Shown one piece after another: positions 411-3,938 of a stretch of 38,083 bases of DNA. The stretch covers positions 1-38,083 of the forward strand of contig JAGGZV010000027.1 of assembly GCA_021161835.1 (NCBI GenBank). Reading direction: 5' to 3'. How positions within the stretch are numbered: position 1 is the stretch's first letter; the number at the start of each line of letters is the position of its first letter. Source of the DNA: Thermotogae bacterium. GTDB lineage: Bacteria > Thermotogota > Thermotogae > UBA12178. The notes beneath the pieces are model-generated. The model saw only the letters and a program-made list of their open reading frames with translations, was not told where the DNA came from and made no database searches. The position numbers and the translations under genes were made by a program.

Positions 411-762
411 GTTTACGTTGTCGCCTGGGCACATAACACGCGGATATTTCTCACTTTACTCAGCTTCTCGAGCGTTATTACAGGGAAGCCAGTAATGTAC
501 GATAATTGCTGCAAAAATTGAAAACTCCTGTACCCCGGTAAAGAAGAGAAATATTATAAGGCCAAACACATCTTCTGAATGTCGAGTACTTTGTATGAAG
601 TCATAAGAAGTATGTGGATTTCCCATCATTTGGTAATGGACTTTAGACTTCCACGAATCTCCGTATAATTATTCGCAATATGAATAGCGTTTATTCGCTA
701 TCGATTTATAGCATTATACTGTTTTTCTTCGATACTTTTCGCCTGTTCGCCAGAAATGATAT

Positions 763-780
763 ACTATCACCGGTGATAGT
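763..780. repeat. perfect 18-bp palindrome ACTATCACCGGTGATAGT (copy A)
   Basis: Read directly; self-reverse-complementary. Overlaps a possible -10 (TATACT, 760-765). Confidence 0.9.
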
Positions 781-781
781 T

Positions 782-799
782 ACTATCAGGGGTGATAGT
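782..799. repeat. near-palindrome ACTATCAGGGGTGATAGT (copy B), overlapping the ATPase Shine-Dalgarno
   Basis: Same half-sites ACTATCA/TGATAGT, 1 bp after copy A. AGGGGTGAT serves as SD for ATG at 801. Confidence 0.9.
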
Positions 800-800
800 T

Positions 801-1913
801 ATGTTGTTTGATCCTGCACCTAAGAAGAATAAAAAGGAGCTTTTCGATAGGGAGGAGGAACTTAAAGAACTGCAGAAAGCTAATGTGCCAATGGTTATGG
901 TTCTTGGGAGCCGCAGGGTGGGTAAGACCTCGCTTGTAAGGGTTTTCATGAATGAAACAAGGTACCCCTCCTTATTTATAGACTGCAGGAGATTCACGGC
1001 AACAGAATCCAGGATAGAAGACTTCGCGGAAGCAATCGCAGAAGCATTTGAAACTTTGAATAAAAAAAGAGGAACTATTAAGAAGCTATTGAAGAATGTG
1101 GAAGAAATAGAGTTCTTAAAAGTAAGGATCAAGCTAAAATCACCCAATTTGAAGAAATCTATAATTGAGGTATTTGAAAAGATAAACGAATTGGCGGAAA
1201 GGCGAAGAACGTTTTTTTACTTGATATTTGATGAGGCCCAGAATCTCCGGTTCTTTAGAAGGATGCATGGAATAGCATTCAATGAGGTTTTTGGTTACAT
1301 ATACGATTCATTTTCAAATGTGAAAATCGTTCTCACAGGATCTGAAGCGGGACTTCTCCGGGAATTTTTGGGTGTGGAAGATAAGGGATCTCCACTTTAT
1401 GGAAGGTATATAAAGGAGATACCACTAACTCCGTTTTCAAGGGAAGATAGTTTGAAATTTTTGGAACTTGGATTTAAAGAAGTGGGGATGGAACCACGTA
1501 AAGAGGTACTTGAAATGGTGGTAGATGAGCTTGATGGTATTGTCGGTTGGCTTGTTTATTTTGGAAGGAAATGCATGGATGCTGGTGTTATAAATCATGA
1601 CATGATACATGAAACATTGAAAATCGCTGAAGGTGTGGTAAAAGCCGAGCTTGATAATATTGCCAGGCTGAGCATTAGATACCTGGCCGTTTTAAAAGTC
1701 ATTTCAATGGGGGCAAGTAAGTGGAAGGAGATAAAAAGTGGTGTGGAATTTCTGGAGAGGAAGAGGATAACAGATACGACTATTTCACGTTCTTTAGAAA
1801 GACTTGAAAAGATGGGATTCATTGAAAAGGTTTCTGACTCTTTTGGTGACAAAGTTTATAAAATTGTAGATCCAATTGTAGCACGCGTTTGCAAAGAAAT
1901 GCGGATAGGTTAA
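801..1913 (+). CDS. archaeal-type AAA ATPase (ATPase_2-like) with C-terminal winged-helix-like region
   Basis: Walker A GSRRVGKTSL, Walker B FYLIFDEAQN, sensor-like VLTGS, C-terminal helix-turn-helix-like segment TTISRSLERLEKMGFIEKV. The ORF track starts at GTG 792; ATG 801 has the better-spaced SD. Confidence 0.85.
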   Translation: MLFDPAPKKNKKELFDREEELKELQKANVPMVMVLGSRRVGKTSLVRVFMNETRYPSLFIDCRRFTATESRIEDFAEAIAEAFETLNKKRGTIKKLLKNVEEIEFLKVRIKLKSPNLKKSIIEVFEKINELAERRRTFFYLIFDEAQNLRFFRRMHGIAFNEVFGYIYDSFSNVKIVLTGSEAGLLREFLGVEDKGSPLYGRYIKEIPLTPFSREDSLKFLELGFKEVGMEPRKEVLEMVVDELDGIVGWLVYFGRKCMDAGVINHDMIHETLKIAEGVVKAELDNIARLSIRYLAVLKVISMGASKWKEIKSGVEFLERKRITDTTISRSLERLEKMGFIEKVSDSFGDKVYKIVDPIVARVCKEMRIG

Positions 1914-1919
1914 AATTGA

Positions 1920-1945
1920 TTCAACTATCACTGGTGATAGTTGAA
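1920..1945. repeat. 26-bp near-perfect palindrome TTCAACTATCACTGGTGATAGTTGAA (copy C; core 1924-1941)
   Basis: Core ACTATCACTGGTGATAGT matches copies A and B. Lies 6 bp after the ATPase stop. Confidence 0.9.
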
Positions 1946-2320
1946 GGCAGATTTCCTCCTCACCCTATTGTAGTATCTTTGCTGTATTTCCCATCTATCC
2001 ATCTCATGAGTTCTATATCTAGTTCTTTCACCCGATTTTCCTTTTCCCGGACTCTGACCCGCTGTGGACTCGTATTCCAATGCTATCTTGTTGCCTTGAA
2101 TTTTGATGATTATCTTCTGTTCCTGACCATTTACTACGTCACCTTTCTTACGAGTATTATCATCCGTCCAGTTTTCAAGGAATCTCAGTTCGAAGTATTG
2201 TGATATCCCTTTAAAGCCTTCCTCTCCCATTATTCCTTTCAATAACTGGTAAATATCTGCATATCCATCTGGGGAACACACTCCGACAAGACTTGACAAA
2301 TGAAACTTTTGATTGTACAA
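1928..2320 (-). CDS. hypothetical protein or gene remnant
   Basis: 130-aa ORF with some protein-like stretches (FKGISQYFELRFLENW, QKIIIKIQGNKIALEYES). TTG start overlaps the predicted aro promoter and no family was recognised. Confidence 0.3.
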   Translation of the reverse strand: MYNQKFHLSSLVGVCSPDGYADIYQLLKGIMGEEGFKGISQYFELRFLENWTDDNTRKKGDVVNGQEQKIIIKIQGNKIALEYESTAGQSPGKGKSGERTRYRTHEMDRWEIQQRYYNRVRRKSAFNYHQ

Positions 2321-2321
2321 T
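2293..2321 (+). promoter_or_regulatory. sigma-A type promoter TTGACA-N17-TACAAT for the aromatic operon leader
   Basis: TTGACA 2293-2298, 17-nt spacer, TACAAT 2316-2321. Expected start near 2328. Confidence 0.8.
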
Positions 2322-2354
2322 TTTCAAAACATCGAGCGTAAAGGTGGGTAGAAG

Positions 2355-2435
2355 GTGAAGAAAATCAGGGTTCTCCGGGCTCAGATGATCGAAAATGGAT
2401 TCTGGTTTTATAGCTATGACGGCACCTGTCCGTGA
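2355..2435 (+). CDS. leader peptide MKKIRVLRAQMIENGFWFYSYDGTCP (GTG start)
   Basis: Short ORF between promoter and terminator with the aromatic run TTC TGG TTT TAT AGC TAT (2400-2417). SD-like AGGTGG at 2342-2347. ATG 2385 is an alternative start. Confidence 0.8.
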   Translation: MKKIRVLRAQMIENGFWFYSYDGTCP

Positions 2436-2537
2436 GTAATCAGGTGCTCCGGGCAGGTGCTAAACGTTATCTGTCCGGAGCACCCAGAAGCATAGAATGG
2501 AAGGGGTCTCCGGGCAACCGGAGACCCCTTTTATTTT
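2421..2537 (+). promoter_or_regulatory. transcription attenuator with mutually exclusive helices
   Basis: P (2422-2432) pairs with 2450-2460. 1 (2443-2456) pairs with 2 (2471-2484). 2 (2472-2485) pairs with 3 (2504-2516). 3 (2503-2513) pairs with 4 (2518-2528). Confidence 0.8.
2503..2537 (+). terminator. intrinsic terminator of the aromatic leader
   Basis: GGGGTCTCCGG-GCAA-CCGGAGACCCC followed by TTTTATTTT: 11-bp perfect stem, GNRA loop, U-tract. Confidence 0.95.
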
Positions 2538-2574
2538 GAAAGCATCTCCTGAAAGGAAGCACGGAGGTGATGAG

Positions 2575-2925
2575 GTGATAGCGATAAGAGGTGCGACATC
2601 GGTGGAGAAGGATACGCCTGAGCATGTGCGGAGTAGAGTAAAAGAACTGTTCGAAGAGATAGTCAGTAGAAACAAGATCAGAAGAATAGAAGCGATTATC
2701 TTCTCCGTAACGAAAGATATCCAGTCTCTGAACCCTGCCACCGTTTTGCGAGAAGATCGATCCCTCGACAGCGTTGCATTGATGTGCTTTCAGGAAGCCC
2801 AGTTCAACGGTTCACCGGAAAAGATAATAAGGATTCTGATATTCTGCGATTCCGATACGAGAGAGTTTGTTTATCTGCATGGTGCTCAGAAATTGAGGCC
2901 TGATCTTGCGGAGGTGAGAGGGTGA
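2575..2925 (+). CDS. aroH: chorismate mutase, AroH type
   Basis: MIAIRGATSVEKDTPEHVRSRVKELFEEI resembles Bacillus AroH (GIRGATTVERDT). GTG start 2575 with SD GGAGGTGAT 2563-2571. Confidence 0.9.
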   Translation: MIAIRGATSVEKDTPEHVRSRVKELFEEIVSRNKIRRIEAIIFSVTKDIQSLNPATVLREDRSLDSVALMCFQEAQFNGSPEKIIRILIFCDSDTREFVYLHGAQKLRPDLAEVRG

Positions 2926-3938
2926 TAGTGGTGCTGAAACCCGGTAGCGGGGATAAGGAGGTTTCTAAAATCGAAGAATTTGTTTCCAAAAGAGGATTGA
3001 AAACCTATGTCTGGAAAGGTACACAAAGGGTGGTGGTGGGCATTGTGGGCGATCTGGAATACTTCTCATCTGAGCAGGTGGAATCCCTGGGGTGTGTGGA
3101 GAGCGTCATAAGAGTACTGAAACCGTTCAAACTGGTTTCACGTGAATTCAAGACGGAAGACACCATTGTGAAGATAGGAGATGTGACAGTCGGAAACGGT
3201 TTCTTCACCGTGATGGCAGGCCCATGCGCTGTTGAAAACAGGGAAATGATAATGGAAACGGCTGAATTTCTGGCTTCACTGGGTGTGAAGATCCTCAGGG
3301 GAGGTGCCTTCAAACCACGAACTTCTCCCTATTCCTTCCAGGGGCTCGGCGTGAAAGGTTTGGAGTACCTCAGAGAAGCTGCGGACAAATACAACATGAA
3401 GGTGGTAACCGAGGTCATGAGCGAAATCGATCTCGATACAGTAGCAGAATACAGCGATATACTGCAAATAGGCTCCAGAAACGCTCAGAATTTCTCACTG
3501 TTGAAAAAGGTCGGTGAAAAGAAAAAACCGGTGCTTCTGAAAAGAGGGTTCATGAACACCGTTGAAGAAATGCTTCTGGCAGCGGAGTATGTTGCACTGC
3601 AGGATAATATGAGCATAATTCTGTGCGAGAGAGGTATACGCACGTTTGAAAAGGCAACGAGAAATACACTGGATATCTCGGCAGTACCCGTTATTCGCTC
3701 TCAATCACATCTTCCCATTGTTGTGGATCCCAGTCATGCAGCCGGTCGAAACGATATAATAACTCCACTTGCAAAAGCGGCCATGGCAGCGGGAGCACAT
3801 GGAATCCTGGTAGAAGTACACCCCAGACCAGAAGAAGCACTCTCCGATGGAAAACAGAGCCTTTCGTTCAAGCAATTCGAAGAACTGTATCGCGAACTCA
3901 GGGAATTGTCCAAACCCCTGGGGGTGAACATGAATTGA
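2922..3938 (+). CDS. aroF: 3-deoxy-7-phosphoheptulonate (DAHP) synthase with N-terminal regulatory ferredoxin-like domain
   Basis: VMAGPCAVENREMIMETA, LRGGAFKPRTSPYSFQGLG, VDPSHAAGRND motifs. GTG start overlaps the aroH stop. Confidence 0.93.
   Translation: MIVVLKPGSGDKEVSKIEEFVSKRGLKTYVWKGTQRVVVGIVGDLEYFSSEQVESLGCVESVIRVLKPFKLVSREFKTEDTIVKIGDVTVGNGFFTVMAGPCAVENREMIMETAEFLASLGVKILRGGAFKPRTSPYSFQGLGVKGLEYLREAADKYNMKVVTEVMSEIDLDTVAEYSDILQIGSRNAQNFSLLKKVGEKKKPVLLKRGFMNTVEEMLLAAEYVALQDNMSIILCERGIRTFEKATRNTLDISAVPVIRSQSHLPIVVDPSHAAGRNDIITPLAKAAMAAGAHGILVEVHPRPEEALSDGKQSLSFKQFEELYRELRELSKPLGVNMN

Follow-up and report, generated by a model that had tools for sequence, protein, structure and literature searches.

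An AAA+ ATPase gene in the 38,083-nucleotide stretch of Thermotogae DNA analysed here (the window) is bracketed by three palindromes which are, in our judgement with good confidence, autogenous operators to which the ATPase docks through its own winged helix, the outcome most likely being repression of the gene. Palindrome pairs of this type are a real and general feature of the family to which the ATPase belongs, and the recognition helix and the operator site appear to change together over evolution. As far as sequence comparison can tell, the resulting recognition code is unusually clean, and it extends across two domains of life.

The window ATPase and its three palindromes

The protein belongs to the SSO1545/PAB2304-type ATPases by both domain score and full-length fold. 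It matches Pfam ATPase_2 (PF01637; E=9e-20, 71.9 bits against a gathering cutoff of 33.2) and the MCM_C winged helix-turn-helix (PF21100; E=6e-9, 36.1 bits), and a profile built from 39 homologues matches the PDB entries 2qen (4e-122) and 2fna (9e-95) over the full length. The AlphaFold2 model (pLDDT 88.9) has a confident winged helix, and Foldseek ranks the same two entries first, with TM scores of 0.83 and 0.80 over ~375 columns, the C-terminal winged helix included. These are PAB2304 of Pyrococcus abyssi (2qen) and SSO1545 of Sulfolobus solfataricus (2fna), full-length homologues with the same ATPase, helical and winged-helix parts. Both have been described as structures, and no operator, regulation or recognition code for either was found in the literature searched.

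The next-best folds are archaeal Orc2 and Cdc6/Orc1. Might the ATPase then be an Orc1/Cdc6-like initiator, with the tandem palindromes serving as its origin or iterons and surviving from integrated replicons? AAA+ plus winged helix is a fold common to both, but the similarity is structural only, with TM about 0.5 and 12-14% identity, and Orc1/Cdc6 proteins bind origins, a promoter pair of the present kind not being known for them. One genome may hold several paralogues with different sites and most relatives hold none, which is not what an initiator would lead one to expect; there is no match to phages, and a single remote one (25% identity) between a Haloferax plasmid and a Thermococcus member. 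We regard an initiator as very improbable.

The palindromes themselves were correctly placed by the preliminary description, which had two tandem copies on the promoter and Shine-Dalgarno sequence and one just past the stop codon, sharing the half-sites ACTATCA/TGATAGT: at 763, 782 and 1924 the half-sites have zero mismatches, and the 38-kb window holds exactly three matches to ACTATCAN4TGATAGT at up to two mismatches where 0.08 would be expected by chance, a number reached by none of 100 shuffles. The first palindrome (O1) overlaps an extended -10 element and the second (O2), 19 bp further on, holds the Shine-Dalgarno sequence, for which its GGGG spacer together with TGAT doubles (Table 1). 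Neither arrangement is peculiar to the window, since a TATACT or TATAAT running straight into the palindrome is also present in other homologues of the window's class, and the GGGG spacer is kept in the start-proximal palindrome of that class and in many archaeal ones. The start codon, ATG 801, is supported by homologues (MLFDPxPK).

The downstream palindrome, present once, has half-sites of the O1 and O2 class and probably arose long ago by direct duplication of the operator. It also scores as a terminator, for a convergent minus-strand ORF that it may serve to end. An Rfam search over the palindromes gave no match.

Table 1. Features of the window and of related loci (window positions unless a locus is named; a dot marks features given without strand)
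Feature	Position	Strand	Remarks
Extended -10 promoter element TGATATACT	757..765	+	Shares its last three bases with the beginning of O1; from sequence
Operator palindrome O1 ACTATCACCGGTGATAGT	763..780	.	Kept upstream of homologues as the first of a 19-bp-spaced pair
Operator palindrome O2 ACTATCAGGGGTGATAGT	782..799	.	Contains Shine-Dalgarno GGGGTGAT
ATPase, 370 aa, SSO1545/PAB2304 type	801..1913	+	Pfam ATPase_2 plus C-terminal winged helix
Winged-helix region, residues 292-355	1674..1865	+	AlphaFold2: helices 292-302, 308-319, 325-338; strands 341-345, 351-355
Recognition helix H3 codons, residues 325-338 DTTISRSLERLEKM	1773..1814	+	Code residues D325 and T327; AlphaFold2 model
Downstream palindrome TTCAACTATCACTGGTGATAGTTGAA	1920..1945	.	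26-bp perfect palindrome with the third copy (1924) as core; ~10 bp past TAA
79% identity to own-genome contig C33:1800-1971	630..801	.	Similarity extends to the end of O2 and no further
~390-bp repeated element (genus g28, ATPase-less genomes)	L164 1860-2249 and 13643-14028; L165 1-384; L166 5133-5457		Ends in an ACTTCCG pair

Of the genes flanking it, those identified are an EstD-type esterase gene and the aro operon. Ahead of the aro genes, window 2293-2537 reads as a promoter TTGACA-17-TACAAT (2293-2321) followed by a leader peptide MIENGFWFYSYDGTCP with its ATG at 2385 and by G+C-rich stem-loops; the FWFY-rich leader is kept at two further loci (L087 and L088), and the stretch looks like a Phe/Trp/Tyr attenuator.

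Operator pairs and the recognition helix across the family

ATPases of this type are present in 42 of 103 Thermotogota genomes, with up to three per genome, and a scan of GTDB contigs adds Thermococcus, DHVE2, Archaeoglobales, Alkanophagales and Caldisericum, with many paralogues in Thermococcales genomes. (A record titled Methanoculleus, L124, has an ATPase nearly identical to that of the Thermotogota genus g28 and is probably a misbinned contig.) Most homologues with a readable 5' region have a palindrome pair on the promoter or start, spaced by 19 bp, or by 18 bp in the GTTCTG clade. An automatic scan found a tandem palindrome scoring above the shuffle maximum in 53 of 70 upstream regions, the observed mean being 23.6 and that of 1,400 dinucleotide shuffles 14.0 (sd 1.4, max 20). 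Half-sites differ by clade: ACTATCA (that of the window), ACTCAA, ACTTAG/ACTTAA, ACTCCA, ACTTCCG and GTTCTG in bacteria; AGTATCG, AGTAATG, ACTTACG and GGTAACG in archaea. No recognisable operator emerged from the upstream scan at L068 and L085, and single palindromes in G019 and G028 were counted as chance because the control pattern matched there too. No earlier description of these operators was found in the open literature searched, the paper on the SSO1545 structure lying outside that scope.

Several loci vary the arrangement. At L035 2577-2723 (G012) two divergent ATPase genes share one ACTTCCG pair, the second protein being 28% identical to that of the window; a Thermococcaceae homologue (L118, upstream of 2501) has four tandem AGTATCG palindromes instead of two; and at L196 1795-5578 (G056) ~3.8 kb are inserted just upstream of the pair, and comparison with G052 shows a repeat of ~15 bp at the junctions.

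Position with respect to the promoter also differs among classes. Pairs of the ACTATCA class and most of the ACTCAA class fall between the -10 and the start codon, ACTTCCG pairs just upstream of TATAAT, and Thermococcus pairs span from a TATA-like element to the start codon. With the pair upstream of TATAAT in one class and downstream in another, DNA, not RNA, is the common denominator. A role as RNA, with 5'-UTR hairpins masking the Shine-Dalgarno and a 3' hairpin ending the message, would suit the Shine-Dalgarno within O2 of the window and the terminator score of the downstream copy. However, the ACTTCCG-class pair, upstream of the -10, is outside the gene's transcript, specificity follows the DNA-recognition helix, and solo pairs occur in intergenic DNA, so that action as RNA is scarcely to be credited.

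What ties the sites to the protein is the way in which the two vary together. With residues numbered as in the window protein, residue 325 is at the N-terminus of helix 3. Where it is D or E (55 genes) base 2 of the half-site is C, and where it is K or N (22 genes) base 2 is G, without exception; one gene has G325 with C. Arginine at 327 goes with G at base 7 in 36 of 36 genes, and the 11 genes with another residue never have G there, an association that has changed once on the tree. On a tree of the ATPase domain, base 2 and residue 325 change five times each, together in all the independent pairs found, though several registers across the set were assigned by eye and the automatic subset alone has three changes of base 2; five independent changes being so few, a sign test was ruled out. 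Among them two Caldisericaceae sisters illustrate the switch: ISDQTLSNN accompanies ACTCAA at L104 and ISNQTLSNI accompanies AGTCAA at L119, that is, D to N with ACT to AGT. The rule was on record, its residues numbered one too high, before any of 40 further archaeal loci had been inspected, and it was obeyed in all 22 that could be placed, 16 of the 22 registers being assigned by eye. Half-site distance follows helix-3 distance when ATPase-domain distance is removed (partial r 0.35, permutation p 0.0005, in a partial Mantel test which removes phylogeny only in part), and the strongest 11-residue windows of the protein include those starting at 319, 325 and 322, on or overlapping helix 3, plus one at 250. 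Much of the co-variation falls between clades, and the palindromes of remote Thermococcus paralogues (L251-L254, L257, L263) are off the code. Contacts of acidic residues to cytosine and of Lys, Asn or Arg to guanine are standard major-groove reading chemistry.

The suggestion that the ATPase regulates itself through its winged helix is well supported by these comparisons, the position of the pair being conserved and the half-site tracking the recognition helix by clade. In the mechanism that we favor, the C-terminal winged helix, as a dimer, would bind one 18-bp palindrome, and two dimers side by side would fill the pair, covering the -10 and start site at O1 and the Shine-Dalgarno at O2. Repression rather than activation would come from a steric block to RNA polymerase, or to TBP/TFB in archaea, with ribosome access also blocked where the Shine-Dalgarno is covered, and ATP binding or hydrolysis would be the probable switch. 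A conserved and specific operator at its own promoter, the mark of an autogenous regulator, is what the family has; genes without a recognisable operator and the off-code Thermococcus paralogues count against the model. For simple autorepression the downstream copy is superfluous; it may act as an operator at a distance or, within the window, as a terminator hairpin.

Confinement to the gene, downstream copies and mobility

Palindromes absent near homologous ATPases, or scattered at random, would have spoken against a link to the gene; neither was seen, the pairs recurring at homologues and, in phylum-wide scans, almost nowhere else. Pairs of the ACTTCCG and ACTATCA classes, at up to three mismatches, occupy 32 places in 103 genomes, 26 of them at the ATPase gene, and a reversed control pattern has no occurrence in the same genomes. 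No regulon is visible for these two classes at that threshold.

The six pairs away from the ATPase are one on contig C33 of the window genome and five in intergenic places of three genomes (G055, G071 and G073) that lack the ATPase yet carry such solo pairs. The C33 pair (1802-1838), the only further place in the window genome, has one half-site mismatch in one palindrome and no adjoining SSO1545-type ATPase. Four of the five intergenic solo pairs are at one end of a ~390-bp repeated element, possibly a small non-autonomous element, whose opposite end carries GGAGTCTGACCCTATTT; its two copies in G055 are 92.6% identical, in the same orientation and 11.8 kb apart. Contig C33 also has a second kind of ATPase gene (L011 2467-3624; PADLOC PDC-S01, 251 bits), which looks like the AAA_14/DUF4143 type and carries, between TATAAT and start (2400-2470), overlapping palindromes of its own, TGAATA..TTATTCA..TGAATAA. 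A stretch 79% similar to that palindrome region is found upstream of the window ATPase, at 669-715 on the other strand.

Do the palindromes mark a mobile cassette, as the preliminary description proposed in the alternative, with a ~1.18-kb unit inserted between unrelated genes? The bracketing palindromes are there; the insertion is a reading rather than an observation. In such a scheme the palindromes would be the ends of a one-gene cassette, and the pair-ATPase-pair unit would move, or excise between direct copies to leave solo pairs. Same-orientation copies past the stop codon do recur, in three Thermotogota half-site classes (L013, L036, L072, L073, L168, L055 and the window) and in Thermococcus (L114). 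The copy is single in the window and degenerate at L055, its half-sites match their own class at each locus, and at L013, L036 and L072 the spacers too are identical to those upstream. The solo pairs recur likewise, that of C33 with 170 bp of similarity to the window ending exactly at the pair, and in G084 homology to the G052 unit covers precisely the pair and the gene, the flanks lying together 7 kb away. The low GC3 of the window gene (0.38 against 0.45-0.52 in its surroundings) and the interleaving of bacterial and archaeal branches on the ATPase tree point in the same direction. At L168 (G014; ~2390-3170) a decayed ATPase gene, apparently internally deleted, has an ACTATCA-class operator on both sides.

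Against a cassette, the unit has no transposase or integrase and no target-site duplication, and most loci have no downstream copy. The comparison with relatives that had been proposed gave no precise empty site: neighbourhoods in G044, G084, G074, G014 and G089 (Thermotoga-like genus g22 and family f9) are rearranged, while in two family relatives the aro contigs begin within a few hundred bases and so fell outside the synteny comparison. In G044, where the gene is missing, another reading frame (flavodoxin-like) occupies the locus in place of a clean empty site, and G033 against G089 and G014 shows rearrangement rather than precise insertion. In Thermococcus, the sequence beside the copies is shared by several genomes. 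A search for a carrier replicon in plasmid, phage and IMG/VR records yielded one partial viral-contig match; among plasmids and phages the window protein went unmatched. Transposase, terminal repeats, target duplication and empty site being the marks of an insertion sequence or transposon, what the family offers is direct operator copies at some loci only. The downstream copies and the C33 boundary are compatible with duplication or excision at the pair, but a mobile cassette we hold to be unlikely.

A broader but doubtful proposition is that of an AAA+ DNA-binding protein devoted to itself, with operator pairs at or flanking its own gene as sole targets, a minimal one-gene element spreading between bacteria and archaea and acquiring a new specificity per paralogue against cross-talk. 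With targets only at their own gene, protein and site would be free to drift together. Paralogues of one genome never fall in a common half-site class (13 bacterial pairs, p 0.08; 72 archaeal pairs, p 0.008), a result on which we do not lean, since class labels were given manually and phylogeny is still in it.

Known systems and the meaning of the proposed self-control

The closest functional parallel to the operator model is provided by the controller (C) proteins of restriction-modification systems, which regulate themselves by way of two palindromic operators at their own promoter, with C-boxes of the GACT-tat-AGTC type (PMC4824078). C proteins, however, are small helix-turn-helix dimers without an ATPase, encoded beside a restriction-modification operon and unrelated in sequence, whereas the ATPase genes here have no linked partner enzyme gene. 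A lambda-repressor-like helix-turn-helix would be expected of a C protein and a 370-aa AAA+ protein was found; such a protein without a restriction-modification operon places the family outside the C proteins.

A single-gene antiviral ATPase, STAND-like or PDC-S27-like, whose operators just set its dose, is a further candidate. The PADLOC PDC-S27 profile matches at 1.2e-14, and the distribution is patchy and transferred; yet the window protein spans only positions 4-317 of the 474 of that profile and ends in a winged helix. PDC-S27 has been described as an ATPase fused to a PD-(D/E)XK domain (PMC12988326). The PD-(D/E)XK region is absent from the window protein, which is thus a relative of these candidate defence ATPases and not one of them. 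We think an antiviral function quite unlikely; it concerns output, not operators, and is compatible with autogenous control.

Under autogenous control, a family of archaeal and bacterial ATPases that is structurally known but functionally blank would acquire a first function that can be tested, ATP-linked binding at the promoter of its own gene. The dozens of protein-site pairs from two domains of life would constitute a natural winged-helix recognition code, offering single-residue switches (D/E to N/K) that match single-base switches (C to G). With sites almost only at the gene itself, the family would also be a clean case in which to ask why a regulator controls only itself.
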